Shown piece by piece: positions 3,031 through 29,714 of a stretch of DNA of 64,000 nucleotides (the stretch's first letter is position 1; each line of letters starts with the position of its first letter). The DNA lies in assembly GCF_020804225.1 (NCBI RefSeq), contig NZ_WJBI01000014.1:252-64251 (forward strand). Direction: 5' to 3'. This DNA comes from Methanosarcina sp. DH2 (GTDB lineage Archaea; Halobacteriota; Methanosarcinia; Methanosarcinales; Methanosarcinaceae). The notes under the pieces were generated by a model. The model saw only the letters and a list, made by a program, of their open reading frames with translations, did not search any database and had not been told where the DNA came from. A program made the position numbers and the translations under genes.

Positions 3031-3468
3031 ATGATAATTCAGAGGTATGATGATTACAGAAAGGAAGAAGTTCGCGATGTCGTCCTGGAAGTCCTGCTTG
3101 AACACGGCTTTGAGTATCACAGACTTAAAGATGCCGACCTGAAAGACATTTATGGCTACTATTTCGTAAGAGGAGGCACCTTTTTTGTAGGACTTGCAGA
3201 TAACAGGGTAGTGGGCACTGCAGGAGTCCGCAAACTTGATGGAAACCTCTGCGAAATCAGGCGCATTTATCTTAAAAAAGGCTTCAGGGGAAAAGGTAAT
3301 GGAGAAAAGCTTTTTCTGGCTGCTCTGGATTTTGCCGAGAAAAACTGTTCTGGCGCCATTCTTAAAACCGATTCAACACTCAAAAACGCGATAGGAATGT
3401 ATCTCAAGCACGGCTTTACATTTGTAAATGAAGAAGAAGGATACCTGTACTATGAGAAACGGTTTTAA
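3031..3468 (+). CDS. GNAT family N-acetyltransferase
   Basis: The 145-residue protein is a single GCN5-related acetyltransferase domain that transfers an acetyl group from acetyl-CoA to an unknown amine. The acetyl-CoA loop is seen in IRRIYLKKGFRGKGNGEKL, the R/QxxGxG/A motif, at about residues 74-92, followed by a helix and the C-terminal NAIGMYLKHGFTFV segment typical of the fold. A strong AAGGAGAG ribosome site sits just upstream of the ATG. It follows the M20 gene by 114 bases on the same strand, so co-transcription is possible. The substrate cannot be read from sequence. Confidence 0.85.
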   Translation: MIIQRYDDYRKEEVRDVVLEVLLEHGFEYHRLKDADLKDIYGYYFVRGGTFFVGLADNRVVGTAGVRKLDGNLCEIRRIYLKKGFRGKGNGEKLFLAALDFAEKNCSGAILKTDSTLKNAIGMYLKHGFTFVNEEEGYLYYEKRF

Positions 3469-8823: not shown

Positions 8824-8832
8824 AGTGATTTA

Positions 8833-9990
8833 ATGAAAATTGCCTTCGTATACGACGCTGTCTATCCCTGGGTCAAAGGGGGCGCAGAAATGCGCATTCA
8901 CGAACTTGGGAGGCGGCTTTCTTCACAGGGGCACGATGTGCACCTGTTCGGGATCAAATGGTGGGAAGGCGTAGACGTAATTCAGCACGAAGGTATGACC
9001 CTGCACGGCGTCTGTAAAGCTCGGAACCTTTATGTAAACGACAGGCGTTCAATTCCCGAAGCGCTTGTGTTTGCTATAAAGCTGTTTCCAGCTCTCCTGA
9101 AAGAAAGATTCGACCTTATCGATGTAAGCGTATTCCCCTATTTTTCCTGTTTTACAGTAAAAGCAGTTTCAGTCCTGAAAAAGACCCCTGCAGTATTTAC
9201 ATGGCATGAAGTATGGGGGGATTACTGGTACGAATACCTTGGAAAAAAGCAGGGGTTTTTGGGACTCGTAATAGAGATCACAGTTGCAAGAATCTCAAAG
9301 AACAACATTGCGGTCTCGGACTGGACAAAGAGCAGGCTTGAAACCCTGGGGGTGCCAAGCAGTAGGATTGCACTCCTGCCCAACGGGGTCGACTTGAAGT
9401 TAATTTCTGAAATCAAACCTGCAGGTCAGGATTTATCGGGAAGCTCGGGAGGCAAAATATATGATATTATCTTCGCAGGCAGGCTCATAAAAGAAAAAAA
9501 CGTTGATGTTTTGATAAAAGCTGTCTCCCTGTTAAAAAAAGATTTTCCTGAAATCTGCTGCTGTGTCGTTGGAGACGGACCGGAAAGGAAATTTCTGGAG
9601 AAACTTACTATTGAGCTTGATGTGCAGAAAAATGTAAAATTTGAAGGGTTTCAGGAGTACAGGGCATTAATTGGAAAAATCAAAGCTTCAAGAGTCCTTG
9701 TGCTGCCTTCTTCAAGGGAAGGGTTCGGGATGGTTGTAATCGAAGCTTTTGCCTGTGGGGTGCCTGTAGTGACAGTTAGAGAGAAACATAACGCGGCACA
9801 GGGGCTGGTTGAAGATGGAGTCGACGGGTTTGTCGTGAGGCTGGATGAGAAGGAAATTGCTGAGAGTGTAAATAAAATTCTTCAAACTGATAATTATACG
9901 GAAATGACAAAATATACCAAAAAAGCTAGAAGTTCTGACTGGGACACGCTATCCACAGAACTTCTCTCAATTTATCTAAAACTATTATAA
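8833..9990 (+). CDS. GT4 glycosyltransferase
   Basis: The 385-residue protein is a GT-B fold family 4 transferase that moves a sugar from an NDP- or GDP-sugar to a lipid-linked glycan. The acceptor domain starts MKIAFVYDAVYPWVKGGAE with the GGAE loop. The donor domain is seen in IIFAGRLIKEKNVDVLIKA and in the ExnE motif SREGFGMVVIEAFACG near residue 300. No membrane helix is evident. It begins 9 bases after the upstream GT2 stop, so the two are likely co-transcribed and act on the same polyprenyl-linked glycan. The specific sugar is unknown. Confidence 0.9.
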   Translation: MKIAFVYDAVYPWVKGGAEMRIHELGRRLSSQGHDVHLFGIKWWEGVDVIQHEGMTLHGVCKARNLYVNDRRSIPEALVFAIKLFPALLKERFDLIDVSVFPYFSCFTVKAVSVLKKTPAVFTWHEVWGDYWYEYLGKKQGFLGLVIEITVARISKNNIAVSDWTKSRLETLGVPSSRIALLPNGVDLKLISEIKPAGQDLSGSSGGKIYDIIFAGRLIKEKNVDVLIKAVSLLKKDFPEICCCVVGDGPERKFLEKLTIELDVQKNVKFEGFQEYRALIGKIKASRVLVLPSSREGFGMVVIEAFACGVPVVTVREKHNAAQGLVEDGVDGFVVRLDEKEIAESVNKILQTDNYTEMTKYTKKARSSDWDTLSTELLSIYLKLL

Positions 9991-13731: not shown

Positions 13732-14715
13732 TTATTTTTTACATAAATATTGGTACCCATATAATCCTAGCAGCACATAATAAACGATTCCGATGATATG
13801 AATAACTATCCCCGAATTGATTGCAAGTTCTTTAGTCAGCCCTATTCCAATAAAACCTATTGCCCACCCAACTTCATAAGTTCCGAACCCTCCCAGGCCT
13901 TGAACAGGAAGAACGGACATAAAAACTACAAAAGTAGAGGCTAACAAAACCTCAAAAAAGCCAATATTTATATCTAAAGATTTAATTAAAGTATAATTTA
14001 AAAAATATAAAGTAAGCCAAATGATAATTGAAATGATACATAGTTCCATCATTCTACCGTTATTCTTTATATTTTTAAAACTGCCAACTATCTCTTTTGC
14101 TTTTTTTAGGAATATATTAACTAAAAAATTATTATCTAGTTTGAGAGTTATGAAAATTGTATTAGCAAACCTCAAAAAGACTTCACCTGCGTATAGCAAG
14201 ATCACTAAAAAAATAGCCAGCAAGACCGTAAATAAAACAACTAACCAGATAACGCTAGAAAACATTTCAGGCAAATCCCTTACAAACAGCGAAGAAACAA
14301 AAAACAGTAATGAAATTGTAATGAAATCTAGCACCCTTGCAACCATCAATGTTGCAACGCCTTCTCCGGTAGACTTATCATGATATTTTTTTAAAATATA
14401 AATATAAGAGAGTTCACCAGATCTTGCTGGAAGAATACTATTTACCATATTGTGAACACATACAATGTGAAAAAGATCGGGAAAGGATATTTTTTTGTCT
14501 AAAAGAATATGGAATCTTAATCCCCTAAAAACATAACTCAAAATATACAAAAAAAAACCTAGGATTAAATAAATTTTATTAATATTCTTAATCGTTGTTA
14601 TAAGGTCCTCTATTCTGATCTGAGATAATATTATTCCAAGAAGCAAAAAAGTTACAAGCACAGGTATAAGCTTTTTTCTAGTAATAAATTTCATAAGTAA
14701 TTTCCATTTTCGCAC
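13732..14715 (-). CDS. AglD/UPF0104-type integral membrane protein (flippase-like domain)
   Basis: The 327-residue protein is hydrophobic along its length with about eight membrane segments and belongs to the lysylphosphatidylglycerol synthase transmembrane / UPF0104 family. Family marks are FRGLRFHILLD near residue 66, the HNMVNSILPARSGELSYIYI segment near 88-107, and VLPVQGLGGFGTYEVGWAIG near 265. Relatives are found in archaeal N-glycosylation loci and may handle lipid-linked sugars; the mechanism is not established. It is the last gene in the minus-strand glycan block, 218 bases from the DUF2079 gene. Confidence 0.82.
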   Translation of the reverse strand: MRKWKLLMKFITRKKLIPVLVTFLLLGIILSQIRIEDLITTIKNINKIYLILGFFLYILSYVFRGLRFHILLDKKISFPDLFHIVCVHNMVNSILPARSGELSYIYILKKYHDKSTGEGVATLMVARVLDFITISLLFFVSSLFVRDLPEMFSSVIWLVVLFTVLLAIFLVILLYAGEVFLRFANTIFITLKLDNNFLVNIFLKKAKEIVGSFKNIKNNGRMMELCIISIIIWLTLYFLNYTLIKSLDINIGFFEVLLASTFVVFMSVLPVQGLGGFGTYEVGWAIGFIGIGLTKELAINSGIVIHIIGIVYYVLLGLYGYQYLCKK

Positions 14716-14933
14716 TAATCAAAGATCTATTTATTGCATCACGGCAACGGTCAGCAATGACAGTACTCCATATAAATATTACGCTTAATGTATACTCATT
14801 CAGCTTTATAATTGTAGGGTTTTTACCTCAGATTGTAAAGGAAATAAAAGGTTTTCGGAAGCTTTAATTCGGAAATAAAGACGTTTTAGTGAAATTAAGT
14901 TACTGATTTTTATAATGCTGAACAGTTATAATA

Positions 14934-16925
14934 TTACATGCATTTGTGTATATTAATTCTTTCCACATACAAATCACTGGAAAGCGGCTGAAATACACGG
15001 AATTCAAATACAGAATCTTCGTGCTCTTTAACACTTAAGGTCAAATTCTGAGAACAGTATTTTCCCTCAATTAAATCGTTTGCATATATATCTTTCGTTG
15101 AATCAACTCTTTGCTCCCCGTTTTTGATATATGAGATGTCTATACTTGCAATATTAGAAGAAGCGTTAGTAATATTCTCTGCTTTCAAAATGTACTCTAT
15201 AGTGTATTTTCCTTCAGGCAATGTTATGTATGGACCATAGACTAAATGACCAGACTCATTAAAAGTTTTATCACTATAAAAAGCATATTTTCCTATTTGT
15301 TGATCATATATGAGCGAACCTGTAGTTTTTTGGCTACGGAAAAACAGATTGTTGTAGACAAAATTGTCATCACCTAGACTGCTGGACTCAAGAGTTTGAT
15401 TGTTTTTTTCGAGGATAAAACAACAACTGTCCGAATAATAAAGCTCATGATTTTTTAAATAAGAAGTGATGCTTTGATATAGACTATAACTCGCTAATGA
15501 AGTCTTTTTTATAATTATATAATCATAGTAATCTGGATTATCTCTTTCATTATAACCTGTATATGTAACGTTAAGGTTTCTATAAAAATAACAACCTAAA
15601 TCCCCTGAACAAAGAATACTATCATCACTAGGAATGAGGCTGATATTTTCAAAAAATTCATGAGCTTCATCTTTCTGAGCTGAATTAATATCTGAAATTG
15701 CTCCACTAACTCCCCCATAGACAAAAAACGAATAAAGACTTAGAGATATTAGAATAATTAAAACCAAATTGAATTTTCTGGTGCTAATTTTTTGCTTAAT
15801 AGATGAAAGGGAGAAAATAGCAGAACAAATAATGACGAAGACTATTACCGATGTATAATGAAAATTAATCATACGTTGGGCTGGAGAATTTGCTAAAAGA
15901 TTCTGTAAAAATACTGGGGATGCAATTAGTAGGATTGTGGGACTAAAAAAGCTAATATAACCTACAGGTAAAAATAAAGTTAGCAAATAATTTAAACTTT
16001 CTTGAGTGAACAGGTATTCGCAAAGCAGTTGGGGATTTGTTAAGAGACTGTATATTACATCAGTGATTGATGTGCCTAAATAAGAATATCTGCCAGCTAA
16101 CATTCCAGACTGAGGTGTTAGAATATACCCATAAAGCTGATTAGATAAATCTGCGAAATAGGGCTTTAAATAAAATAATTCAAAAGAAAAGATCCCAATA
16201 CCTAATAATAAAGGAGTATAAACCCATTTTTTATCGTACTTTTCTATAAAAGCATACACCCCAAACATTATAGCTACTAGAGGTATGTTCTCTTTACAAA
16301 TGCATGCAAGAAACAAGAAAAATAAAAACTTATTAAAAGATTTAATATACATGTAATAAAAAGAAAACAAAAGAAAAGGCAGTGCAAATATCTCTTCTTT
16401 AACACTTTCTAAAAATAGCCAGCTTACAGTCGGGTGTAAGAAATATATCATGACTGAAACTAATGATATCTTTTTGGATTTAGACACTTCATTAGCTAAC
16501 CAGTAGACGGGAAACGCACCTAAAGATAATAGAAAGGAACTGATAATCGAAAAAGTAATCGGATGAGGATAAATATAAAAAAAAGGTAGAAGTAATAAAA
16601 AAATATACCTCTGATGGCCAACAAAATCTATAATTTCCCCATTTATTGATGAATAAAAGAAATGATCATGGACAACAGTATTATGAAAAAGTTGATACAT
16701 TATTCCTTTGTCAAAAGGATTAAAAGGACACATATATTGATAAGTTGAATTAAGCAAAAAAGTATAGAAGAGAAAGTTAGAAAAAAATAGAAATAGAACT
16801 AGAGCATCAAAAGTATCGTATCTTACAAATAATCCTTTAAGGTTATGGATCACCTTTTTTGGATTAAAGTATGCTTCAAGACTTGAGTTTAAAGCTTTAA
16901 ACACATGATTAGCTTTTGATAACAC
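14934..16925 (-). CDS. DUF2079 family multi-spanning membrane protein
   Basis: The 663-residue protein has many hydrophobic segments in its first 430 residues, then a soluble exterior domain to the end. The DUF2079 marks are seen: FDKGIMYQLFHNTV, VGHQRYIFLLLLPFFYIYP, LLSLGAFPVYWLANEVS and FLHPTVSWLFLESVKEEIFA. The family is related in layout to GT-C membrane glycosyltransferases, so a role in sugar transfer at the outer face is plausible but unproven. The C-terminal 150 residues look like an extracellular beta domain. Codon use is very AT-rich. It lies between the triple GT4 and the AglD-like gene. Confidence 0.83.
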   Translation of the reverse strand: MLSKANHVFKALNSSLEAYFNPKKVIHNLKGLFVRYDTFDALVLFLFFSNFLFYTFLLNSTYQYMCPFNPFDKGIMYQLFHNTVVHDHFFYSSINGEIIDFVGHQRYIFLLLLPFFYIYPHPITFSIISSFLLSLGAFPVYWLANEVSKSKKISLVSVMIYFLHPTVSWLFLESVKEEIFALPFLLFSFYYMYIKSFNKFLFFLFLACICKENIPLVAIMFGVYAFIEKYDKKWVYTPLLLGIGIFSFELFYLKPYFADLSNQLYGYILTPQSGMLAGRYSYLGTSITDVIYSLLTNPQLLCEYLFTQESLNYLLTLFLPVGYISFFSPTILLIASPVFLQNLLANSPAQRMINFHYTSVIVFVIICSAIFSLSSIKQKISTRKFNLVLIILISLSLYSFFVYGGVSGAISDINSAQKDEAHEFFENISLIPSDDSILCSGDLGCYFYRNLNVTYTGYNERDNPDYYDYIIIKKTSLASYSLYQSITSYLKNHELYYSDSCCFILEKNNQTLESSSLGDDNFVYNNLFFRSQKTTGSLIYDQQIGKYAFYSDKTFNESGHLVYGPYITLPEGKYTIEYILKAENITNASSNIASIDISYIKNGEQRVDSTKDIYANDLIEGKYCSQNLTLSVKEHEDSVFEFRVFQPLSSDLYVERINIHKCM

Positions 16926-17036: not shown

Positions 17037-20000
17037 TTAGAGATCCATTTTCATAAGATATAAATCATCATATAATAAGCTTTCAAATTTATTTGCTATA
17101 TTTGGCCAACTATTTTCTTCAATTTTTTTCTTTGCCAGATCGATGGTTTTTTTACGAAATTCATCATTTGAATAGATTTTTATTAATCCTTCAGCTATTT
17201 TATCTGGAGAACAACTTGAAATCTTGTACACTTCCTCATTGAACTCACTAAATATTGGAATATCTGTTACGATTACAGGCCTATGAGATGCCAAAGCAAA
17301 TCTTATAGCCGCACTGGAAGCTTCTTTGGTCTTTTTGTAAGGCATAACAACAACATCTGATACCTGCAATAAGTAAATTATTTCCTGCTCTTCCAGGAAA
17401 TCTGTAAAGAATATAACATGATTGCTTAGCCTTAACTTGTTAACCTCTTTCCTGCATTCTTCGTAATATTTTTCTGAAGTTTCATCTGGAAAAATGGAGC
17501 TTACAACCAAAAAAAGTACATCAGGATATTCGTTGATTATTGAAGGTAATGCCTTTATTGTTTCTAATACACCTTTGTGTGGCAAGAGAAAACCAAAAGT
17601 AGAGATTATTTTGGAATTATTAAAAATTCCTGATCTAATTTTTTCTTTTTCATAATCATCAAAAATTACATTTCCTTGAGGAATTTTTATGACATTATCA
17701 GAAATTCCCTTTTCGGATAACTTTTTGACATCATTTGTAGTGTGAACCCAGATCTTGTCTACAAGTTTTAGCTCTTCCGTGATAGTGTCTAATTTAATGG
17801 GCTTATTCATAAATTCAGTATCATTTATGGAATGGAAAGTGATTATCAATTTTACACCCTTGCCTTTTAGTTTTTTGACCATATCAGCCAGAGCATTCAG
17901 TTCAAAAAATCCAAAGTTGAATTGAACATGAACGATGTCCAGATTACTTTCCAGTATTTTATTGCTAAGAGTGCTCAAGTCATCGAAATATGGTTCCCAA
18001 CAACGGATTACGTTATCTTCATCACTTGCTACAAGTTCTTTAGAGCTAACTTTGTTTGCAAAAATTATAATTTCTTTAAAATTGCTTAAATTGTTAACTA
18101 AATATTTTGTATACTCGGAAATACCACATTTCGTATTCCAGGTAGAGACGACTCCTAATTTTGGTTTAAACTGAACACTCCTCAAAAATTCGATTGCTTT
18201 TTTAGCTGAAACTTCCCAGTTGAAATTATTTTTGATATTTGTGTACGCCGCTTCTATTTTTGTTTTTACTTCGTTACTATTTTTATTTTCATACACATGC
18301 CTCATCAAACTGGATAAATGGTCTATATCAGGTTCTGCCCATAATGAACCTTCCATTGAATATTCTTCCATTAGATGAGTTTTAGAGGGCTTCAGTTCAA
18401 AATCAATTAAATATGAATTTTCGTCATCGCAAAAATCCAATTGTCCACCATATCTCGTAGCTATGACTGGAATTTTATAAAGCATCGCTTCAGCAATGGT
18501 CAAACCAAATCCTTCACCCCTGGAGGGAGACACATAGCAGTCACATTTTATATATAAAGATACCAAATCATTTTGGGTAATATCTTTATCAATATGAATT
18601 ATTTCGGGACCGTCAGGCCCTACAATATTTTTTATTTGTTCAGAAGTATGGTTATGAGGATTTGGGAAAGTCTTCAAAACCAGGCAGACATCGTCCTCTT
18701 TACTGAACTCTTTAGCATAAGCTCTCAAAAGTACGTCTATCCCTTTTCTCGGGAAACCCGAACCTACATTAAAGAACAAGAACTTTTTATTTGTGTTTAG
18801 CTTCATGGGCAAGATATCTTTTTGAAAAACATCTACTTCAACACCATTAGGTATGACTTCAATTCGACTCTTTACACCGGATTTGATCAACACCTTCTTC
18901 ACAAAATTAGATGGAACGAGTATGCCATCCAAACTGTTGAAGTCATTTATCCATTCCCATGGAACAGAAGACTCTTCCCAAGCGAAGTATATGAGATTAT
19001 ATCTACCCTGCATATCTTTTATTCTCGGGGGATATATATTCCTAATAGCAAAAGTTGGATATCTAATTTGATTTTCCCACAGTGTTTTAACTTTATTGTC
19101 TGTTATACTACCTTTTTTTGGCACATAGTCTCCAGCTCCTGTTGTCGCAAAGAGCGAAACATTATAGCCCAGTTTGTCTAATGCTATTGCTAAATTTCGA
19201 TTTACGATAGACAAACTATAAGAATCTTCAAATGTACCCTCTATTCTTATTGTCGATTTAGAATAAGTATCTTTAAAGTCGGTATCTATATAATCTTTTA
19301 AAATTCCTGCAATTCTCTCTCTGCTGAAAAACTCCAGTCTTTCAGACTGCTTTTTAATAATTCGATTTCTCAATACCTTATCTTTAACTAACAAGTTAAT
19401 TAGTTCAGCAATCTCTATGTAATTTTTATCATTAATTATGATCCCGGCGCCACCAAGTGTATCAGGAATTGCAGTAGAATTATATGCGATAATTGGAACT
19501 TCAAAATACATGCTTTCAAGTAATGGAACACAGAAACCCTCGTGCTCGCTCATAGTCAAAAAAATATCACTTACTTTATAATAAGATACCAACTCATCTA
19601 AATTAGTGTGCCCTGTAAAATATACATTTTTCAGATCTAATTTTAGGATTATATCGTTCAAATAGTTATAATACGAATCCATCCCGTTATAAGAACCTAC
19701 TAAAAACAATCTGGATTTAGGATTTATATATTTGTTATAATTGTAAAAACACTTTATCGCATCATCTACTTTCTTATTTGGACTTATTCTACCAACAACT
19801 AATATATTGACAAATTCATCATCGTACTTTTTAATTACCTGATTATTCGGAGTGATGTCAAATTTATTTAAGTTGACTAAATATGGGAGAACACCCGTTT
19901 TAATAAATCCTATACTAATCAAGTCTTGTCTATTAAATTCAGAATCTGCTAGTGCTACATCAACAATATTTCTGATTTGATTTTTTAGTTCATAAATCCC

Positions 20001-20348
20001 AATTTTTGTTGCATGCTCGTATTCAGAGCTGAAATTCTGGAAAAATACAGGTGGAGTTATATTGTGATATAGTAATATTTTCTTATCAGGCAGTGAACTA
20101 ATAAAATCTAAAAGTTCAGAGCCATATCCTATAGAGTAATGCACTATGAGAATATTTTGAGGGGAACTAACTTTTTTATATTCAGCATAATTTTTTATGT
20201 TTTTTAATTTGGGATGGATAAACTTAGCATAAATATCAGATTCGTAACCAAACTCGTTTAGAATCTTTCTTATTTCGATCATTTCATTTCCAATCGCATC
20301 CCCATAACTTACTGAAGGATGGATTTGATGAATTTGGAATCTTCTCAT
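17037..20348 (-). CDS. Giant glycosyltransferase with three tandem GT4 domains
   Basis: The 1103 residues divide into three GT-B units. Unit one (1-370) has ILVVGRISPNKKVDDAI and SEHEGFCVPLLESMYFEVP. Unit two (about 370-730) has FFNVGSGFPRKGIDVLLRAY and SRGEGFGLTIAEAMLYKIP. Unit three (about 730-1103) opens with VVSTWNTKCGISEYTKYL and has STFGFLLPHKGVLETIKALP, but its ExnE site reads KEASSAAIRFALASHRP, with the second Glu replaced by Phe. No membrane segment is seen. Multi-domain GT4 proteins often polymerise the repeat unit of exported glycans. The gene starts 29 bases behind the methyltransferase and belongs to the Wzm-Wzt operon. It is strongly AT-rich. Confidence 0.92.
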   Translation of the reverse strand: MRRFQIHQIHPSVSYGDAIGNEMIEIRKILNEFGYESDIYAKFIHPKLKNIKNYAEYKKVSSPQNILIVHYSIGYGSELLDFISSLPDKKILLYHNITPPVFFQNFSSEYEHATKIGIYELKNQIRNIVDVALADSEFNRQDLISIGFIKTGVLPYLVNLNKFDITPNNQVIKKYDDEFVNILVVGRISPNKKVDDAIKCFYNYNKYINPKSRLFLVGSYNGMDSYYNYLNDIILKLDLKNVYFTGHTNLDELVSYYKVSDIFLTMSEHEGFCVPLLESMYFEVPIIAYNSTAIPDTLGGAGIIINDKNYIEIAELINLLVKDKVLRNRIIKKQSERLEFFSRERIAGILKDYIDTDFKDTYSKSTIRIEGTFEDSYSLSIVNRNLAIALDKLGYNVSLFATTGAGDYVPKKGSITDNKVKTLWENQIRYPTFAIRNIYPPRIKDMQGRYNLIYFAWEESSVPWEWINDFNSLDGILVPSNFVKKVLIKSGVKSRIEVIPNGVEVDVFQKDILPMKLNTNKKFLFFNVGSGFPRKGIDVLLRAYAKEFSKEDDVCLVLKTFPNPHNHTSEQIKNIVGPDGPEIIHIDKDITQNDLVSLYIKCDCYVSPSRGEGFGLTIAEAMLYKIPVIATRYGGQLDFCDDENSYLIDFELKPSKTHLMEEYSMEGSLWAEPDIDHLSSLMRHVYENKNSNEVKTKIEAAYTNIKNNFNWEVSAKKAIEFLRSVQFKPKLGVVSTWNTKCGISEYTKYLVNNLSNFKEIIIFANKVSSKELVASDEDNVIRCWEPYFDDLSTLSNKILESNLDIVHVQFNFGFFELNALADMVKKLKGKGVKLIITFHSINDTEFMNKPIKLDTITEELKLVDKIWVHTTNDVKKLSEKGISDNVIKIPQGNVIFDDYEKEKIRSGIFNNSKIISTFGFLLPHKGVLETIKALPSIINEYPDVLFLVVSSIFPDETSEKYYEECRKEVNKLRLSNHVIFFTDFLEEQEIIYLLQVSDVVVMPYKKTKEASSAAIRFALASHRPVIVTDIPIFSEFNEEVYKISSCSPDKIAEGLIKIYSNDEFRKKTIDLAKKKIEENSWPNIANKFESLLYDDLYLMKMDL

Positions 20349-20377
20349 AAATCACACCACTTACTATTTTTGGCAGC

Positions 20378-21550
20378 TTATTCTTTTTCTTCAGTAACTA
20401 TGCATACTATTTGTGTATCTTCACGATAATATTCCAATTTTTCAATGTTGAATCCACCATCATTGAGGATTACTTCCCATTCTTCAGTAGTCATTTTTCT
20501 CTCATTCCCAAACTCACGTTTCGGGTAATGTATTGAAGGAACAGAGAATACAACATATTTTGCCGTTTCAAGTTGCTTTGAAAGTATTTTTATAAGGCCT
20601 TCATTATCAAAGTGTTCCAGTGTGCCCTGTGAAAAAGCTACATCAAAATATTTATTTTTAAAAAGGTTTAGAGAGTTTGCATCAAGCATGACGAAATTAG
20701 CATGTCCACCTAATCTCTTGTTAGTGTTTATTGCATTGAAAATTACATTTATATCATTATCTAATCCCAGAACTTGATATTTTTGTCTGGAGAAATAAAT
20801 TGACATCGTAGCAGTACCTATGCCAACCTCAACCAGTTTAGGCACCCTTTTTTCCGAAGCCTTGTGTGCATATTCTTCTATTAGTGAAATAAAATGTTTA
20901 TGATGGTTCATATTTCCTAGCAGGTCTGCTTCGGAAATATCTTCACTATAATATTCTCCCCATGAAGAAGATGCTACTGCGTTTCCTGAAGAAGTTAAGG
21001 AATTAGAATTCATAACTTTCACTTTTTGTTCAAGCTCAACAACTTTAGCGTCCAACGCACTAGCTTGTGAATTTGATTCCTCATTTTTAATTAGAAGCTC
21101 TTCATATTTTCGCATGAGGTCTTCATTCTTTCCAAGAATCCCTTCATATTTCCCAAGAAGTTCCTTATTCTTCCCCAGAAGCTCCGTACAGATCCTACAA
21201 ATGCACGCATTTAATTCACTTTGTTGAGAAAAAATTGGGTCTACATATCGTTTAACTTCCCCGTTTACCAGATTGCGCGCTTTTACCAAAAAAGACCCTA
21301 TAAAAGGGCGATGTGAACTAATCACATAGCTTCTGTTTTGAACATCATAATTTGAAGTTAAATATTCAAGATCTTTGGCTGCCATTCCATCCACCATAGG
21401 AAGAAAACTTTTTTCAGGGTTTTTTATAACAAAGTTTGGGATCGATTCTGAGTAAGCACCAGCTTTTTTTCTGCTCTGAATATTATCTCTTATCTTTTCC
21501 AAAATTTCTTTTGCATTGATTTCATCATCATGAACTTCAAAAGTATTCAT
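20378..21550 (-). CDS. SAM-dependent methyltransferase with N-terminal coiled coil of exact heptads
   Basis: The 390-residue protein has a long N-terminal part, then a class I methyltransferase domain from about residue 215. Motif I is LVEVGIGTATMSIYF at 239-253; GLDND follows, then FDVAFSQGTLEHF. Residues 124-158 are five seven-residue repeats (LLGKNKE, LLGKYEG, ILGKNED, LMRKYEE, LLIKNEE), continued by a less regular coil to about 180. It begins one base after the Wzt stop. A coiled-coil methyltransferase beside Wzt recalls the WbdD chain terminator of bacterial ABC-dependent O-antigens, where the coil sets chain length. No kinase domain is seen. The acceptor is inferred to be a glycan. Confidence 0.87.
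   Translation of the reverse strand: MNTFEVHDDEINAKEILEKIRDNIQSRKKAGAYSESIPNFVIKNPEKSFLPMVDGMAAKDLEYLTSNYDVQNRSYVISSHRPFIGSFLVKARNLVNGEVKRYVDPIFSQQSELNACICRICTELLGKNKELLGKYEGILGKNEDLMRKYEELLIKNEESNSQASALDAKVVELEQKVKVMNSNSLTSSGNAVASSSWGEYYSEDISEADLLGNMNHHKHFISLIEEYAHKASEKRVPKLVEVGIGTATMSIYFSRQKYQVLGLDNDINVIFNAINTNKRLGGHANFVMLDANSLNLFKNKYFDVAFSQGTLEHFDNEGLIKILSKQLETAKYVVFSVPSIHYPKREFGNERKMTTEEWEVILNDGGFNIEKLEYYREDTQIVCIVTEEKE
21077..21181 (-). repeat. 21-bp in-frame repeats encoding five coiled-coil heptads
   Basis: Five consecutive 21-base units inside the methyltransferase gene encode a seven-residue pattern [LI][LM]x K[NY]E-like with hydrophobic first and second positions. DNA similarity between units is still visible, so they arose by recent tandem duplication. 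Confidence 0.8.
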
Positions 21551-21551
21551 A

Positions 21552-22796
21552 TCAGATCGCCCTCTCTGAATTTAATAGCCAGGAGCATGAAAGACCCAAT
21601 ATACCCTCCTCATATCCAGTTGGAATTACGGAGAATGAATATTGCTTATCCTTATGATCTAACGGAACGTAGTCTTTGGATTGTACCAAGTCTACTGTCA
21701 TTAAAAACTTCCCTGTTTGTAAAGGTATTTTTTCAATTAGCAGATCTATATAGCCACTTCCCAGAATACTATTAATCGGATAATTTTTAAGATAAGTATT
21801 TGTTCCAAAAAGATGCTTACCCCTTTCGGAATACAGCGCAATACCAAATACAGGGTCCTCTACAAGCTCCTTTGAATTGTAAAAAATACGTACTTTCATT
21901 GGGTCAAGGGAATTAAAGTTAGTATTTGCATGGTCAAATTTATCATAAAAACTTACATCAACGATCTCTGCTATTTTTCCAGAAATCTGGCGGCAAGTAA
22001 GCCCATCTTTACCATCTTGTAATTTGTTTTCGTTTGATTCAGGTTCGTTATTATTCGAAGGAGAAGTTTCCACTTTTGAATAAACGTATCTATCTATCAC
22101 TTCAGTTGGATCTCCTATTGCAACCTGCCTTCCTTTATTTAAAAGTAAAACCTTATCACAAAATCTCCTTACCGCCCCAAGATCATGGGAAACAAAGATT
22201 ATTGTAATTCCTTTTTTCCGGTACTCATTCAAGACATCCAGGCACTTCTGCTGGAACTCCATATCTCCTACAGCCAGTACTTCGTCCATCAAGAGAATTT
22301 CCGGATTGGTTTGAATTGCTGTTGAAAAGGCAAGCCTTACCTGCATGCCCGATGAAAAATTTTTGAGTTTCGTATCCCTGAAGTTCTTAAGTCCTGCGAA
22401 CTCAAGAATATCATCCAGTTTATCATTGATTTCTCTTTTTTGCATGCCCATTATAGTTGCATAGATTTTTATGTTCTCTGAAGCCGTGAGGTCCGGCTGG
22501 AAGCCAACTCCAAGTTCAAGGAAGGGAGTGAGTTTTTTTAGGGCAGTAACACTCCCTAGTGACGGACGTAAGATATTTGCAATAATTTTTAATAGAGTGC
22601 TCTTTCCACTTCCGTTCTCTCCAATAATTCCAAGAGCTTCCCCCTCTTCAACTGTAAAATTAATGTCTCTAAGTGCATGGAAAGTTTCGTATGTAGGAGG
22701 CTTGAAAACCCCAGTTAAAGTTTCAAATATAGTGGTTCTTTTTTGATGGGGTATGCGAAATGTCTTATGCAAGTGTTCAACCTTAATTGCAGTCAT
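21552..22796 (-). CDS. wzt: Wzt-type ABC transporter ATPase with C-terminal cargo-binding-like domain
   Basis: Residues 1-240 are an ABC ATPase of the polysaccharide/teichoic acid exporter class: Walker A GIIGENGSGKSTLLK, signature LKNFSSGMQVRLAFS, Walker B PEILLMDEVLAVGD, and the switch FVSHD. After a serine/asparagine linker, residues from about 270 to 414 form a beta-rich domain (SLDPMKVRIFYNSKEL, FGIALYSERGKHLFG), like Wzt C-terminal domains that bind the modified chain end in E. coli O8/O9a-type systems. The start overlaps the Wzm stop by one base. It powers export of a lipid-linked glycan with the permease encoded upstream. Confidence 0.93.
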   Translation of the reverse strand: MTAIKVEHLHKTFRIPHQKRTTIFETLTGVFKPPTYETFHALRDINFTVEEGEALGIIGENGSGKSTLLKIIANILRPSLGSVTALKKLTPFLELGVGFQPDLTASENIKIYATIMGMQKREINDKLDDILEFAGLKNFRDTKLKNFSSGMQVRLAFSTAIQTNPEILLMDEVLAVGDMEFQQKCLDVLNEYRKKGITIIFVSHDLGAVRRFCDKVLLLNKGRQVAIGDPTEVIDRYVYSKVETSPSNNNEPESNENKLQDGKDGLTCRQISGKIAEIVDVSFYDKFDHANTNFNSLDPMKVRIFYNSKELVEDPVFGIALYSERGKHLFGTNTYLKNYPINSILGSGYIDLLIEKIPLQTGKFLMTVDLVQSKDYVPLDHKDKQYSFSVIPTGYEEGILGLSCSWLLNSERAI

Positions 22797-23575
22797 CAGA
22801 TTTCCTCCGCAAATCTGGGTTCTAATCTGGAAAAAATAATGTATCCAACAAGAAGGAAAACTATTGATGAAAGAAACATAAATAAAAGATCCTCTATTTT
22901 CGCTGGAGACGAATAGATAATAGTATCTCTTGCAGAAATAATAATCCGTGCAATTGGATTCAATAAGATAAATCCCTGTAGATTTTTAGGAAATACGTCA
23001 AGTGTGTATAGTATAGGAGTTGCAAAATATCCAACCTGCAAAAGAACCTGCCAGATAAACTGTACATCCCTGTAAAATACATTCAATGCGGAAAGAGCCA
23101 GGGAGAGACCAAATGAAATAATAAAAAGGAAAAACAGAATAAATGGCACGTATACCAGGTTAATGGAAATTGGTACTCTGAAAAATACCATAAATATTAT
23201 GAATATCAAAGACTCGAAGATGCTCATAAGCAAAGCTGTAATGCATGAGGAAACAACAAAAATATCACGCGGAAAGTAAATTTTCTTAACGATACTCGCT
23301 CTTCCTACTATGGAAAACATTCCGATAGTGGTAGCTCTGCTCAAAAAACCCCATAAAATAATTCCAAGAAGCAAGAATAGCTGGTAGTGCTCCACCTGAA
23401 CCCTCATTAAATTTGAGAAAATAACATACAGAACTATGAGCATAAGCATGGGCTCCAGAAGTGACCAGAAATAACCCAGTATAGAATTTTTATATCTCAA
23501 TTTAAACTCGCTCCATGCCAGTTGCCAGATAAGATTCCGGTAGTCATACATCTCTTTAATGTGCTTAACGATCAT
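22796..23575 (-). CDS. wzm: Wzm-type ABC-2 permease for polysaccharide export
   Basis: The 259-residue protein has about six membrane helices and an amphipathic N-terminal segment. It carries the family marks [20 protein letters not shown] and [20 protein letters not shown] near the N-terminus. The helices near residues 60-75, 105-135, 140-165, 175-195 and 230-250 fit ABC-2 exporters of O-antigen, teichoic acid or capsule. It overlaps the upstream GT4 gene by 11 bases and the Wzt gene by one, so the pair is translationally coupled. With Wzt it should move a polyprenyl-linked polymer across the cytoplasmic membrane. Confidence 0.92.
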
Positions 23576-24644
23576 TATTTACCACATTTTTTATCTTTTC
23601 ACTAAAAATCGAAAGATCAAAGCGTTTTGCCTGCTCAAGACAGGCATCCCTATATTTTTCGGGTTCACAGGATATGAATTTGACAGCCTCTATAACGCTG
23701 GGAACATCTGCATTTATAAGAAGACCCGTTTTTTCGGTTACTGTCTCTTTAAATCCGCCCTCATTCACAGCCACAACAGGTTTTCCACTTGCCATGGCTT
23801 CCACAGGCGTCATCCCGAAGTCCTCGTCCATAGCAGTGCAGATAAAACCTTTACAGCGAGAGTAGAGGTCAAGCAGCTCTATCTCAGAGACTTCCCCAAG
23901 TACTTTTACATTATCTGGCAGATTGTTAATGACATTTTTTGCATAACTTTTTGCATGGTCTCCTTTTGAGTATCCTCCTACAATAAGAAGTTTTTCTTCG
24001 GGCATTTCCCTGAAGGCTTCTATCTGGAGCTCGACTCTTTTTTCAGGATAGAGGCGATTTACCGAAAGCCAAAAATCTCCATATTCTTTACAGGTGAATT
24101 TTGCAGTCTCAACCGGAGGATAGATAACCTCAGCGTTCCTATGGAGATATTTTTTGATCCTCTGTAACGTATTCTTCGAGTTAGTTGCAATCTTACAGAC
24201 GTGGGAAAGGTAATATTCGGAAACCGGTCTGTGAAGTCTGACCCATATTCTGAAGAAAACGGAAACAAAAAATGACTGCCTCATCAGAAAGGTATCATAA
24301 AGATCGTAGAAGGCCCTCGTAGGAGTATGGCAGTAATACAAATTTGGTTTATGTTTTTTTGCAGCGAAATACGCCCAGTTCCCGGAAAAAATAAAGAAAT
24401 CATACTTTTTTGAGAAATCACACGTTGCAAAGAGGAAAGATGCTGAAATCTGCTTCAAAGGAGGCACCTTTGAAGTCTTACCAAGACTTATGATGTGTAT
24501 ATCGGAATAGCCCATCTTTTTTATGGATTCAATATTTAAGTCCGTAGTGATAACATCGGCATTAAAATATTTTGCGAGCATCAAAACCAGTTTTTCTCCA
24601 CCGCCAATAGCTCCGAAGTAGTCGTGAAAGATAGCTGTTTTCAT
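23565..24644 (-). CDS. GT4 glycosyltransferase, first gene of the export operon
   Basis: A GT-B family 4 transferase of about 359 residues. [19 protein letters not shown] carries the acceptor-side GGGE loop; [11 protein letters not shown] and [15 protein letters not shown] are typical of the mannosyltransferase-like WbaZ/ALG2 group. The donor domain has [19 protein letters not shown] and the ExnE motif [19 protein letters not shown] prefer the ATG at 24644; an ATG four codons earlier also exists. Its end overlaps wzm by 11 bases. The remnant at 10011-10273 is a decayed relative. Mannose is a plausible sugar given the nearby GDP-mannose dehydratases, but this is inference. Confidence 0.9.
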
Positions 24645-24656
24645 GTTTATTCTCAT

Positions 24657-25049: not shown

Positions 25050-26075
25050 TTGACAAAGGTCGCACTGATCACAGGCATAACAGGCCAGGATGGCACGTAT
25101 ATTTCAAAACTTTTATTAGATAAGGGATATGTAGTGCATGGGATAAAGAGAGAATCTTCTACTGCCAGAACAGAAGATAAAGGTGGTGCGCAGAAAAACA
25201 TAAATCTTCACTTTCATTTCTGCGACATAACCGATTACTCAAAGCTTATAAGAATTATCAAAGAGGTCCGCCCGGATGAAATATATAATCTGGCGGCTCA
25301 AAGCAATGTACAGATCTCTTTTGACCGACCAGAATATACAGCAGAAATTAACGCACTCGGCACCCTGCGCCTCCTTGAAGCCATACGCACCCTTGGACTG
25401 GAAAAGAAAACAAGGTTTTTTCAGGCTTCCACGGGGGATTTATTCGGAAATTCACTGGAAATCCCGCAAAATGAAAGTACTCCTTTCTACCCGCGAAACC
25501 CTTATGCAGTGTCCAAATTGTATGCTTACTGGATTGCAATAAACTATCGTGAAGCTTATGATATGTTTGTCTGCAATGGTATCCTGTTTAACCATGAATC
25601 CCCAATAAGACCCGAAAATTTTGTTACGAGAAAAATTACCAAGGCTGCAGTTAGAATAAAAAAAGGACTTCAAGAGAAACTGTACCTTGGAAATCTGAAT
25701 GCAAAAAGAGACTGGGGGTTTGCAGGGGATTACGTTGAAGCTATGTGGCTCATGTTACAACAGGATGAACCGGATGATTATGTAATTGCAACAGGTGAAA
25801 CACATTCAGTACAGGATATGGTGGAATTTGCATTCAGAGAGGTTGGGCTTGAGATCGAATGGGAAGGAGAAGGGCTTGAGAAAAAAGGGAGAAACGCTGC
25901 AACAGGTGAGATCCTGATAGAAGTGGACCCCCAGTTCTATAGGCCTCTTGAATCAAGCTTATTAGTTGGAAACCCTTCAAAAGCCAGAGAAAAACTTGGA
26001 TGGATGCCAGTAGTAAATTTTGAAGAACTGGTTAAAATGATGGTCAAAAACGACCTGAAATTCGTAGAAAGTTAA
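25050..26075 (+). CDS. GDP-mannose 4,6-dehydratase paralogue with altered active site
   Basis: The 341-residue extended short-chain dehydrogenase starts at TTG behind AAGGTG. It matches GDP-mannose 4,6-dehydratase along its whole length: [35 protein letters not shown], the YxxxK pair Y152/K156 in [11 protein letters not shown], and [11 protein letters not shown]. Two points differ from the family and from the next gene. The catalytic T-S-E reads T128-G-D130, Glu replaced by Asp. The NADP-binding RRSSxxNTGRI loop reads [13 protein letters not shown]. It may act on a related GDP-sugar or a different step. The second paralogue follows after 28 bases. Confidence 0.85.
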
Positions 26076-26103
26076 AATATTTGTTTGAAATTGCGTGGTA
26101 AAA

Positions 26104-27132
26104 ATGTCTAAGGTCGCATTACTTACAGGTGTAACCGGGCAGGATGGAGCATACCTTGCCGAACTTCTGTTAAACAAAGGATATACTGTGCATGGAATGC
26201 ATAGAAGATCGTCTCTAAGCAATACAGGACGTATAGATCATCTCCTGCAAGATCCGCATCAAAAAGGCTCCAAATTTTTTATGCATTACGGAGACCTGAC
26301 CGATTCAGCAAATGTTATCAAACTTATTAAGGACATAGAACCTGATGAAATTTACAACCTTGGCGCCCAAAGTCATGTCCAGGTTTCTTTTGAGATCCCG
26401 GAATACACTGCAAATTCGGATGGAATTGGAGCCCTTCGTATCTTGGAGGCAATCAGAATTCTTGGGCTGGAAGACAAATCTAAGTTCTATCAGGCATCAA
26501 CCAGTGAATTATTCGGGAAAGTACGTGAAGTTCCCCAAACAGAAACTACTCCCTTCTACCCGCGAAGTCCCTATTCAATAGCTAAACTGTATGCTTACTG
26601 GATTGCCATAAATTATCGTGAAGCTTATGGCATGTTTGCCTGTAACGGCATCCTGTTTAATCATGAATCCCCTTTGAGAGGAGAAACTTTCGTCACCAGG
26701 AAGATTACAATAGCTGTGTCAAAGATTAAAAAAGGCCTTCAGGATAAACTCTATCTTGGAAACCTCAATGCCAAACGTGACTGGGGATTTGCAGGAGACT
26801 ACGTTGAAGCTATGTGGCTCATGCTGCAGCAGGATAAACCCGAGGATTACGTTGTAGCAACAGGGGAAACTCACTCCGTTAGAGAATTTACTGAACTTGC
26901 ATTCAGAGAAGCAGGTATCGACATAAAATGGGAAGGAGAGGGAATTAGCGAGATAGGCAGGGATGCTGACAGCGGAAAAGTAATTGTGGAAGTTGATCCG
27001 ATGTTTTACAGACCGACTGAAGTGGACCTCTTAATAGGGGACCCTTCAAAAGCCAGGGAAAGACTTGGCTGGAAAACAAAGGTCAGTTTTGAAGAACTGG
27101 TAAGAATGATGGTAAAAAGTGATATGAGATAA
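26104..27132 (+). CDS. gmd: GDP-mannose 4,6-dehydratase
   Basis: The 342-residue enzyme converts GDP-mannose to GDP-4-keto-6-deoxymannose, the precursor of GDP-rhamnose, fucose, perosamine and related sugars. Key residues are intact: [32 protein letters not shown] for NADP, T133-S-E135 in [11 protein letters not shown]157 and K161 in [12 protein letters not shown], and [20 protein letters not shown] prefer ATG at 26104; a GTG at 26095 would add three residues. It is a tandem paralogue of the gene upstream. No GDP-4-keto-deoxymannose reductase is seen in the window, unless the first paralogue fills that step. Confidence 0.92.
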
Positions 27133-27210: not shown

Positions 27211-27233
27211 CTTAAAAATTGAACGTGAGTGAT

Positions 27234-29714
27234 ATGGAGAAGTCAGAAAAATCCTGTCAAAACGAAAACGCACGAAAAAAAATTTCAAAAAATATTTTCG
27301 TGCTTGGGGCTGCTCTCTTAGCCGGCTTCATCATGCGCATGCTCTCCTATGCTTCACTTACTGCAGACGGAGGCATAACCTTCACGGGATATGATGAATT
27401 TTATCATATGCGGCGCATTCTTTATACAGCCTCTAATTTTCCCCATTCTCTTAACTTTGATACCTATCTCAACTATCCTTATGGTTTTGAGATCGGCTGG
27501 CCGCCATTCTTTGACCTGTTAGGTGCCCTGCTTGCAATAATTATGGGAGGGGCGCGGCCTGATACGCATACTGTTGAATTTGCCGGAGCTCTTTTGCCCG
27601 TACTGCTCGGAGTCCTGACAATAATTCCGGTATATTTGATAGCGGCTTCAGTTTTTGACAGAAAAACAGGGCTTGTTGGAGCTTTTGCTTTTGCGGTTCT
27701 GCCTGCCCATGTATACGTATCCCGCTTTGGGGCAGTAGATCACCACGTAGCTGAAGTATTCCTCTCAACAATAGCCTATGCATTTTTCATACTTGCCTTA
27801 AAGCTGGCAGGAGAAAGAAGTCTTTCGTTAAGTTCGCTCAAAAACATATCTTCAGACAGGAAACTCGTAAATCCTCTGCTTCTTGCAGTGGGTTCAGGGC
27901 TCTTTTTTTCGCTCCTTATCTTCACATGGGTAGGAGCTCCTGCCCTTATCGGCTTTGTTGTCCTTTATTCATTGGTTCAGGCAACACTCGATCTTAAAGC
28001 AGGGAAAAAGTCAGATTACCTCTTCATCTGTTCGTCTGTAGCCCTGTTTGCAACACTTCTGTTTACTATCCCCCTCTCAGCAGGAGCAGCCCGTCAGGGG
28101 TTTGAAATGAGTGCAATGTATCTTTCCTGGTTCCAGGTGGTCTATGTGCTGATCCTGCTCGCAGGAATATTTCTTTTATGGAGTTTTTCGGCATATATCT
28201 CAAAGAAAGGAGTGGACTGGAAGTACTATCCTGGCGTATTAATACTCATTTCCGTTTCGGGGTTTCTTTTCCTGCGGATATTTTCCGTCGAATACTACGC
28301 TTTCATTATCGAAGGACTGAGTTTCTTTTCGGGTAAAGGCGAATATATAAGCACAATTTCCGAAGCAGTCCCCCTGCTTCTGACCGCACAGGGAAAACTT
28401 ACCTTCTCGGCAGTACTGGGAAGTTTCGGGCTTTCTTTCCTGGCTGCACTTGCAGGATTTTTCCTGCTTATCCTTGAGTTAAAAAGCGAAAAATCAAAAC
28501 CAGAAGTGGTATTCTTCATTGTATGGACACTTTTTTATGCGTACCTTGCCCTTTCCCAGAGACGTTTTACCTATCTTTTTTCAGTTAATATCTCAATTCT
28601 TACTGCCTATCTCCTCTGGGTTCTGCTGGACTCGCTTGATTTCGAAACAGAAGTGAAAAAGCTGGTAAAATCCGGAAAAGGAATGGAAAAAGGCCCGCGA
28701 CCTGCCCTTCAAACAGGAAAGAAAACGCCATTAAAAACTAAATCAAAACCAAAAACCAGACAGGGGACGGAATCAAAGATTAAGGTTGCCGAACCGGACT
28801 ATTTTAAGCTTGTTTCAGGTATGGCACTGATAGGACTTGTCTTTGTACCCTCCTTATGGTTGGGTGCTGCTTTTGCAAAGGATGCAGTCTCAATTGACCC
28901 TGAATGGAAAGACTCCCTCGAATGGCTTGAGACTTCCACACCTGCAACCTCCTATTATCTTGAGCCTTCAGAAATCCCTGAATACGGAGTCCTTAGCTGG
29001 TGGGACTACGGAAACTGGATAGTATACGTGGGAAAGCGGCCTGCGGTTTCAAATAACTTCCAGACAGGCGTAGAAGATTCTGCACGCTTCTTTCTAACAG
29101 ATTCCGAAAAGGAAGCAAAAACAATAATAGAAAAGCTCAATATAAGATATGTAATAACCGACACACTGATGACAGAAGGTAAATTCGGAGCTATTGCCAA
29201 AATAGCGGGAAAAGAGATCGGTGACTACTACGAAGTCAAAACCGTGCAAGAAAATACAGGTCTCAAAACCGTTGCAACTCCCAAACAGACTCTTCTGCAG
29301 ACCCAGTTATATAAGCTTTACAAACTCGACGGGACATCCCTGGGGAATTTCAGGCTGGTTCATGAAAGCACTATAAATACCACAGATGGGAATAGCAGCG
29401 GAAACACTGTAAAGATATTCGAATATGTCAAGGGAGCCACTCTTTCAGGCACTGCAAGTCCTAACGAGACCGTGATGGCAACACTTGAGCTCAGCTCAAA
29501 TACAGGCAGGACATTCACATATCAGAAAGGGAGCGTGGCAGATGAGAAAGGTTCATTTGAGATAATCGTTCCCTATTCGACGGAAGACACAGGCAGAGTA
29601 CATGCAATATCCACCTATTCGCTGACCACAGGAAAAAACTCAACCGTTTCAGGAATTCAGGTGGCTGAAAACGACATTTTAAACGGGAATAGAATTGAAA
29701 CGAGCAATCCCTGA
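27234..29714 (+). CDS. aglB: Oligosaccharyltransferase AglB (STT3 family)
   Basis: This is the archaeal single-subunit oligosaccharyltransferase, which moves a lipid-linked glycan to Asn in N-X-S/T on exported proteins at the outer membrane face. The N-terminal half has about 13 membrane helices. The first acidic loop motif is FTGYDEFYHMRR; a second metal-site motif is GAVDHHVAEVF. The soluble half holds the signature WWDYGNW near residue 589. A lysine-rich cytoplasmic or loop linker lies near 480-510, and the C-terminal 100 residues look beta-rich. Starts at TTG 27219 or GTG 27225 are possible; I chose the ATG. Its place beside glycan genes fits its job. Confidence 0.94.
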   Translation: MEKSEKSCQNENARKKISKNIFVLGAALLAGFIMRMLSYASLTADGGITFTGYDEFYHMRRILYTASNFPHSLNFDTYLNYPYGFEIGWPPFFDLLGALLAIIMGGARPDTHTVEFAGALLPVLLGVLTIIPVYLIAASVFDRKTGLVGAFAFAVLPAHVYVSRFGAVDHHVAEVFLSTIAYAFFILALKLAGERSLSLSSLKNISSDRKLVNPLLLAVGSGLFFSLLIFTWVGAPALIGFVVLYSLVQATLDLKAGKKSDYLFICSSVALFATLLFTIPLSAGAARQGFEMSAMYLSWFQVVYVLILLAGIFLLWSFSAYISKKGVDWKYYPGVLILISVSGFLFLRIFSVEYYAFIIEGLSFFSGKGEYISTISEAVPLLLTAQGKLTFSAVLGSFGLSFLAALAGFFLLILELKSEKSKPEVVFFIVWTLFYAYLALSQRRFTYLFSVNISILTAYLLWVLLDSLDFETEVKKLVKSGKGMEKGPRPALQTGKKTPLKTKSKPKTRQGTESKIKVAEPDYFKLVSGMALIGLVFVPSLWLGAAFAKDAVSIDPEWKDSLEWLETSTPATSYYLEPSEIPEYGVLSWWDYGNWIVYVGKRPAVSNNFQTGVEDSARFFLTDSEKEAKTIIEKLNIRYVITDTLMTEGKFGAIAKIAGKEIGDYYEVKTVQENTGLKTVATPKQTLLQTQLYKLYKLDGTSLGNFRLVHESTINTTDGNSSGNTVKIFEYVKGATLSGTASPNETVMATLELSSNTGRTFTYQKGSVADEKGSFEIIVPYSTEDTGRVHAISTYSLTTGKNSTVSGIQVAENDILNGNRIETSNP

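Follow-up and report, generated by a model that had tools for sequence, protein, structure and literature searches.

The window analyzed here is a 64,000-nucleotide stretch of the Methanosarcina sp. DH2 genome (contig NZ_WJBI01000014.1). According to our ORF calls, it holds a glycan-export locus of five minus-strand genes (17037-24656) with junctions of -11, -1, +1, and +29 bases, whose products are, in gene order, a GT4 glycosyltransferase, Wzm, Wzt with a Wzt_C domain, a protein that joins a helix to a methyltransferase, and a GT4 with three domains. An earlier note, made from the sequence alone, had described five minus-strand genes with these identities and with overlaps or gaps of less than 30 bases; the ORF calls and the Pfam matches agree on both counts. 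The note placed the end of the locus at 24644, which is the second Met of the ORF opening at 24656; since a homolog starts at the same Met (MKxAIFHD), 24644 is probably the better start for the first GT4. As the note had also reported, two genes of the GDP-mannose dehydratase family lie divergently; we place them 393 bases away. The features of the locus and its neighbors are as follows.

23565..24644, minus strand: GT4, conserved first gene (ORF opens at 24656); PF00534
22796..23575, minus strand: Wzm, ABC-2 permease; PF01061
21552..22796, minus strand: Wzt, ATPase with a C-terminal carbohydrate-binding module (CBM); PF00005 and PF14524
21573..21989, minus strand: Wzt_C/CBM domain, residues 270-408; PF14524 (9.6e-22) and identity analysis
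20378..21550, minus strand: candidate chain terminator, 390 aa, N-module plus coiled coil plus class I methyltransferase; Pfam, alignment, AlphaFold
21206..21550, minus strand: N-terminal module, residues 1-115; alignment and phylum search
21008..21262, minus strand: predicted single helix, residues 97-181 (85 residues, ~12.7 nm); AlphaFold and periodicity
20381..20971, minus strand: class I methyltransferase domain of the window type, residues 194-390; PF13649, AlphaFold, Foldseek
17037..20348, minus strand: three-domain GT4, 1103 aa, WbdA homolog, proposed polymerase; WbdA alignment
19284..20348, minus strand: GT4 domain 1, residues 1-355, EX7E at 270/278; Pfam and motif
18165..19238, minus strand: GT4 domain 2, residues 371-728, EX7E at 612/620; Pfam and motif
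17064..18143, minus strand: GT4 domain 3, residues 736-1095, EX7E absent at the expected place; Pfam and motif
25050..26075, plus strand: GDP-mannose 4,6-dehydratase (GMD)-family protein 1, TGDLFG in place of the TSELFG active-site motif; TIGR01472 and motif
26095..27132, plus strand: GDP-mannose 4,6-dehydratase 2, TSELFG; TIGR01472 (596 bits) and motif
27219..29714, plus strand: AglB oligosaccharyltransferase, WWDYG; PF02516, PF18079, PF22627, and motif

Wzm matches the ABC2_membrane family (PF01061, 1.5e-20) and is 27% identical to Escherichia coli O8 Wzm (110 bits). Wzt carries an ABC_tran domain (PF00005, 2.5e-25) and is 31% identical to E. coli O8 Wzt over its full length, including the CBM; its residues 30-377 match the Wzt of the solved bacterial structure 8dku, from Aquifex aeolicus (3e-68), and this homology reaches through most of the CBM. 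The cargo-like C-terminal domain of the earlier note is thus a Wzt_C/CBM. The 1103-residue GT4 contains three GT-1 stretches (Pfam, 2.7e-62), aligns over 924 columns with the WbdA of E. coli O8 at 29% identity (439 bits), and is 32% identical to a Methylosinus protein over nearly its full length. The third domain of WbdA-O8 likewise lacks EX7E, so that the EX7E/EX7E/none pattern is common to both proteins. By its three GT4 domains and its homology, the archaeal protein is best assigned to the WbdA family. The first GT4 (PF00534, 1e-26), whose C-terminal half scores 246 bits against the Archaeoglobus fulgidus wbaZ-1 structure 2f9f, is 62-91% identical among Methanosarcina and related loci, even where Wzm and Wzt differ; we propose that it is an adaptor or priming glycosyltransferase. 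For the three-domain GT4, the adjoining GMD genes suggest GDP-mannose-derived sugars.

These genes resemble those of a characterized bacterial pathway. The rfb locus of E. coli O8 (equivalent to Klebsiella pneumoniae O5) has the same core order, wzm-wzt-wbdD-wbdA, and likewise combines a three-GT4 polymerase of the same motif pattern, a Wzt with a CBM, and a methyltransferase-only terminator with a coil. E. coli O9a and K. pneumoniae O3 have the polymerase-terminator-CBM export logic in common with the archaeal locus (PMC11231755, PMC3482155), but their WbdD has a kinase domain that the archaeal protein lacks, and their polymerase has two GT modules rather than three (PMC11231755). In K. pneumoniae O7, a single chain, ORF6, is built as methyltransferase-kinase-coil-GT2-GT2 (PMC11231755), whereas the window encodes separate proteins with GT4 domains. 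Overall, the locus contains the Wzm-Wzt pair, the Wzt CBM, and the multi-GT polymerase of the ABC-dependent polymerase-terminator class (E. coli O8/O9a and K. pneumoniae O3/O4/O5/O7/O12), together with, at the level of architecture (AlphaFold and heptads), a coil ending on one side in an enzyme that is a candidate for chain termination. It differs from WbdD-family systems in the type of methyltransferase domain and in the order methyltransferase(-kinase)-coil-C-terminal polymerase-binding part. The likeness to O8/O9a claimed in the earlier note stands for the sequences of polymerase and exporter and for gene order, but not for the methyltransferase domain or the domain layout, which is reversed. 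Moreover, E. coli O8 has WbdB and WbdC downstream, and the archaeal locus has one GT4 upstream instead. Unlike E. coli O8, the archaeal host has no WecA-type phosphoglycosyltransferase (PF00953, at E 1e-3; present in 12 of 14 control genomes) and no WaaL-type (Wzy_C) ligase (PF04932) in its genome, so the first and last steps may differ from those of bacteria. We consider it probable, at about 0.7, that these genes form an archaeal polymerase-terminator-exporter locus that operates in the manner of the E. coli O8/K. pneumoniae O5 system.

The N-terminal module of the candidate terminator matches no Pfam family. It shows two conserved stretches in the alignment, DDEIN..EKIRDNI..RK and SSHRP..G..LVKxRxLVxGEVKRYVDP, and is proposed to be the anchoring or polymerase-recruiting part. 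The module helix was also considered as a membrane-binding amphipathic helix, an idea that we rejected given its unremarkable amphipathicity. The catalytic domain matches Methyltransf_25 (PF13649, 1.8e-8) and is predicted with a pLDDT of ~90 over most of its length; its Foldseek matches are SAM methyltransferases that share the generic class I fold only, the best of them including porphyrin and protein N-terminal methyltransferases. Neither the window protein nor its two-sequence profile matches O8 WbdD, whereas the other archaeal methyltransferase type (MT2), ~20% identical to the window's catalytic domain, matches WbdD-O8 with a profile E of 3e-35. Judged by sequence, the window protein is not of the WbdD family: its catalytic domain appears unrelated, and its module-coil-methyltransferase order is the reverse of the methyltransferase-coil-anchor order in O8.

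The heptad coiled coil reported in the earlier note was recovered both as the single helix predicted by AlphaFold and as a heptad signal in residues 112-185 (p=0.014 against shuffles), with self-similarity peaks at shifts of 7, 14, 21, and 28; the G003 orthologue gives p=0.003. For loci L024, L036, and L113 the heptad test was not significant, and their coils show self-similarity periods of 11, 15, or 26 residues. The window and G003 proteins are 75% identical, and their sole indel is of 14 residues, or two heptads, in the coil; other close pairs differ there by 7 or 22 (11+11) residues. Indels of repeat-unit size are expected in any coiled coil, and these changes would be compatible with coil length setting chain length. 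Alternatively, the glycan may be made, exported by Wzm-Wzt, and methylated while the coil serves only as a scaffold tethering the enzyme to the polymerase, with no measuring of length. Such a role would suit locus L081, where the spacer is almost absent (5 residues) and a coil ruler therefore cannot be universal, as well as the different repeat types across loci (7, 11, 15, and 26); in addition, we found no chain-length data for any archaeon. Yet spacer length varies widely among homologs (5-193 residues), largely by whole coil repeats, and a comparable arrangement is a ruler in characterized bacteria (PMC11231755). We regard a pure scaffold as rather unlikely.

The module is present in 59 distinct proteins. 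Each of the 56 that are complete has a methyltransferase at its end, WbdD-like in 51 and of the window type in 5; the window type has relatives in four further lineages. A Wzt gene lies in the same locus and on the same strand in 55/59 cases (directly upstream in 41), and in a comparison of 295 genomes from the phylum, the module and Wzt_C went together (28/38 versus 1/257). Most of the ~50 loci examined show the arrangement GT4-Wzm-Wzt(-C)-module/methyltransferase, which is therefore not due to chance. Two findings that could have refuted the note's reading turned out otherwise: the Wzt C-domain is a CBM, and the gene order is kept across many methanogen lineages. The earlier reading of a polymerase-terminator-exporter operon is thus supported. 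These comparisons make the locus one variant within a widespread archaeal family, in which most members have a WbdD-related methyltransferase. Namely, the module-coil-MT2 proteins of Methanosarcina, Methanoculleus, Methanoregula, Methanoperedens, Methanolobus, and others have the same N-module, coil, and place after Wzt as the window protein, but a WbdD-related catalytic domain. A search for the window protein on plasmids gave no match. As for the note's remark that no archaeal version had been described, one sentence in PMC11231755 names ORF6-O7 and ORF7-O7 homologs in Methanoculleus marisnigri, without analysis of the locus; archaeal versions are thus not wholly undescribed, and beyond this remark we found no literature on archaeal Wzm/Wzt or chain-length control.

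The generic fold and the Foldseek matches of the window enzyme would also fit a methyltransferase unrelated to the locus, acting on a small molecule, RNA, or protein and merely located in the operon. This is very improbable: the domain shares a polypeptide with a module that elsewhere accompanies WbdD-like methyltransferases beside Wzt, the same fusion occurs in distant lineages, and locus L112 retains a decayed WbdD-like fragment alongside its window-type enzyme, as if one methyltransferase had replaced the other. We also asked, with trees of 50 loci, whether the CBM reads the methyltransferase type. Such coevolution was rejected, since the trees rule against a single CBM clade for window-type enzymes (p-AU 5e-5) and L112 is a counterexample, its CBM being 81% identical to a Methanoculleus CBM paired with the other methyltransferase type. 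Across genera, CBM types do not follow methyltransferase types, and a sorting-like pattern is seen within Methanosarcina: the CBMs of the window and of G003 show 52% identity to those of nine Methanosarcina loci with the other methyltransferase (nucleotide-binding domains, 83%), and these nine share 77% CBM identity among themselves. Loci L037 and L038, of the same methyltransferase type, have 72% CBM and 92% nucleotide-binding domain identity.

With few exceptions, the Methanosarcina loci examined have AglB as their divergent neighbor, as do some loci of further Methanosarcinaceae; AglB may be the attaching enzyme. Accordingly, the ABC transporter might export a lipid-linked glycan that AglB moves onto S-layer asparagines, giving long, size-controlled N-glycans instead of a polysaccharide that is free or bound to lipid. 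The lack of a Wzy_C ligase favors such a route, but four AglB_L1 genes and nine genes of the Polysacc_synt flippase type are present in the genome, and AglB does not adjoin the locus in most other lineages. This route, compatible with our main explanation, is a tentative possibility that we would not expect to hold.

In the polymerase-terminator-exporter model, the first GT4 would put the first sugar or sugars on a polyprenol-linked primer made elsewhere. The three-domain GT4, by homology, would polymerize the chain; its probable donor is GDP-mannose or a GDP-6-deoxysugar, which the two GMDs may help to supply. The terminator protein, by its architecture, could hold the polymerase at its N-module, and the methyltransferase, which the helix sets ~10-13 nm apart from that module, would methylate the non-reducing end of a chain that is long enough, so that growth stops. 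As in characterized bacteria, the Wzt CBM would bind the capped chain for export by Wzm-Wzt, and attachment to the surface might fall to the neighboring AglB or another enzyme. We infer chain-length control and cap recognition at this locus. The core order, the WbdA homology, the Wzt CBM, the methyltransferase that ends every complete module protein (mostly of the WbdD-related type), the linkage of module and Wzt, and the published bacterial logic count in favor of the model, and coil changes in whole repeats (periods of 7, 11, 15, or 26) count for its ruler part. Against it, we count the generic, non-WbdD-like methyltransferase, the lack of CBM sorting across genera, the missing WecA- and WaaL-type genes, the near absence of a spacer in L081, the unremarkable amphipathicity of the module, and the fact that coiled coils generally change by repeat units.

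A gene set like the build-cap-export set of E. coli O8 thus lies in a methanogen, and the chassis of its candidate capping protein recurs beside an exporter in numerous methanogens; whether the length of archaeal surface sugar chains is controlled can therefore be tested directly. In bacteria, the way in which a terminator and a coiled-coil ruler exert such control has been worked out (PMC11231755, PMC3482155). A bolder and rather unlikely extension is that, in many methanogen lineages, a methyl-capped polysaccharide of controlled chain length is made on an archaeal chassis of module, coil ruler, and exchangeable methyltransferase. In Methanosarcina, AglB would then receive the product, Wzm-Wzt export would form one pathway with N-glycosylation, and the locus would vary like an O-serotype locus. 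With AglB nearby, one may ask how glycans exported by an ABC transporter become attached to an S-layer cell. The window and its G003 orthologue, one 14-residue coil indel apart, already offer a natural experiment on the ruler. If such control operates in methanogens, archaea would have surface glycans that are O-antigen-like, size-controlled, and variable, along with naturally occurring coil-length variants that differ by exact repeats and natural swaps of capping enzymes on one chassis.

The earlier note described five minus-strand genes separated by overlaps or gaps of less than 30 bases. The ORF junctions (-11, -1, +1, and +29 bases) agree with this, and each domain is backed by Pfam. The genes, identified by ORF and Pfam, are as follows.

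23565-24656, minus strand: GT4
22796-23575, minus strand: Wzm
21552-22796, minus strand: Wzt
20378-21550, minus strand: methyltransferase protein, 390 aa
17037-20348, minus strand: three-GT4-domain protein (GT4x3)

The GDP-mannose dehydratase pair noted as divergent from this run was also recovered, as two GMD-family genes, followed by AglB with a WWDYG motif. The GMDs point to GDP-mannose and 6-deoxy derivatives as candidate sugars. GMD1 (25050-26075) has TGDLFG where GMD2 has TSELFG, a variant shared by five of six GMD1 loci (TGEIFG in L030); GMD1 may be a GMD-derived reductase/epimerase rather than a second dehydratase. AglB adjoins the locus in nearly all Methanosarcina loci, and the 4.6-Mb genome (G000; genus group g1, Methanosarcina) carries four AglB_L1 genes. 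Neither a PF00953 initiator nor a Wzy_C ligase was found in this genome. Downstream of the locus (13732-16925, minus strand), an LPG_synthase_TM/flippase-like protein is encoded alongside a DUF2079 membrane protein; each also has relatives close to some related loci (L022 and L060). Elsewhere, tandem SMC_N and calcineurin-like phosphoesterase genes (41198-46572, minus strand) are probably a Rad50/Mre11 pair for ordinary DNA repair.

The O8 reference was a plasmid record found by tblastn, in which wzm and wzt are annotated as "O8 family" and wbdC is also annotated; two genes are labeled merely methyltransferase and glycosyltransferase, so that the names WbdD and WbdA derive from locus position, domains, and the literature. 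Its order is wzm-wzt-methyltransferase (WbdD position)-large GT (WbdA position)-GT-wbdC, and the core gene order of the E. coli O8 rfb locus is the same as that of the window locus. WbdA and GT4x3 are 28.9% identical over 924 columns (439 bits), and in each protein EX7E is present in the first two domains but absent from the third; Wzt is 31% identical over its full length, and Wzm is 27% identical. In O5/O8, WbdA has three mannosyl GT modules and a methyl ends the chains (PMC11231755), and O8 WbdD is a simple methyltransferase (PMC3482155). Therefore, within the O8/O9a-type parallel first proposed, O8 rather than O9a is the closest known system. A conjugative IncX5 plasmid from E. coli carries a complete O8-type O-antigen locus (L100), the WbdD coil of which contains a tandem duplication of ~50 residues.

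Single archaeal Wzm, Wzt, and GT genes are already known, and solved structures exist for Archaeoglobus fulgidus wbaZ-1 (2f9f) and a methyltransferase (3dli). The note knew of no described archaeal version with all parts; Methanoculleus homologs of O7 enzymes are mentioned in one sentence (PMC11231755). In the open-licence papers searched, we found no description of the archaeal N-terminal module discussed below, of the methyltransferases exchanged on it, or of an archaeal locus in O8-type order.

The 390-aa protein, the candidate terminator, comprises a module without a Pfam family (about residues 1-115), a long helix (residues 97-181, AlphaFold), and a class I methyltransferase domain (residues 194-390; pLDDT of about 90 over most of it). 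Of 295 genomes searched in the phylum, 29 have the module, and the GTDB collection yielded 44 loci with it, almost all from methanogens or their methanotrophic relatives (Methanolobus, Methanohalophilus, Methanoculleus, Methanoregula, Methanothrix, Methanoperedens, and Methanocella). Outside these genera, it was found in "Ca. Fermentimicrarchaeum" and on one short contig of a bacterial "Ca. Nanosynbacter" MAG (L085), where the module-methyltransferase gene could be binning contamination. All 56 module proteins with a complete C terminus (59 distinct proteins in all) end in a methyltransferase. Synteny in other archaea bears out the arrangement: Wzt lies in the same locus and on the same strand for 55/59 module proteins (54 of these Wzts have the C-terminal carbohydrate-binding module, CBM), and 41/59 follow Wzt within 400 bases. 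The module is present in 28 of 38 genomes with Wzt_C above the cutoff versus 1 of 257 without it (Fisher 1e-29), a value that overstates independence because the genomes are related; adjacency to Wzt is the stronger point. In some bacterial loci (Pseudomonas, Shinella, and Campylobacter), a related methyltransferase directly follows Wzt, although no match of these proteins to the archaeal module was established.

When the CBM is compared with methyltransferase type, its identity drops strikingly within the genus, and no clade-level agreement appears across genera. Given this mixed result, we infer recognition of the cap by the Wzt CBM from bacterial systems only (PMC11231755).

The catalytic domain of the candidate terminator has no match to O8 WbdD. 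The catalytic domain borne on the same module in other Methanosarcina loci, ~20% identical to that of the window, does match it (profile E, 3e-35). The layout thus amounts to WbdD in reverse order, on which the enzyme can be exchanged. The window-type methyltransferase is found on this module in four further, distant lineages, directly after Wzt in all three of their fully read loci (L112, L113, and L114). Just downstream of the intact protein in L112 lies a decayed WbdD-like fragment (2796-3185), possibly a fossil of catalytic-domain replacement. Methanosarcina also has a second type of locus, in which Wzm/Wzt differ (L028, L031, L032, L034, L035, and L039); there, the module lies within proteins of 1,084 to 1,120 aa, after two additional methyltransferase domains and one other stretch.

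The window protein and its close ortholog in genome G003 (404 aa) are ~75% identical, and their single indel, of 14 residues, falls in the coil. In other close pairs, the coil differs by 7 or by 22 (11+11) residues, and gaps outside it span 0 to 2 residues in most. Exceptions are L037/L041, with two 11-residue gaps offset from each other; some close pairs with 5- and 12-residue gaps near the catalytic domain; and combined or nonunit gaps (29 and 13, for example). By self-similarity, the period is 7 residues for the window, whereas other Methanosarcina show 11, some show 15, and L113 shows 26; in L113, a near-perfect 26-residue tandem repeat (8550-9956; 65% self-identity at shift 26) suggests recent lengthening of the coil by duplication. 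Spacers range from 5 to 193 residues, the shortest in "Ca. Fermentimicrarchaeum" (L081, 7944-9062), where the module joins the methyltransferase almost without a coil. The pattern of coil lengths is one that a ruler under selection could give, but whole-repeat changes are obligatory in any coiled coil, and L081 has almost no spacer.
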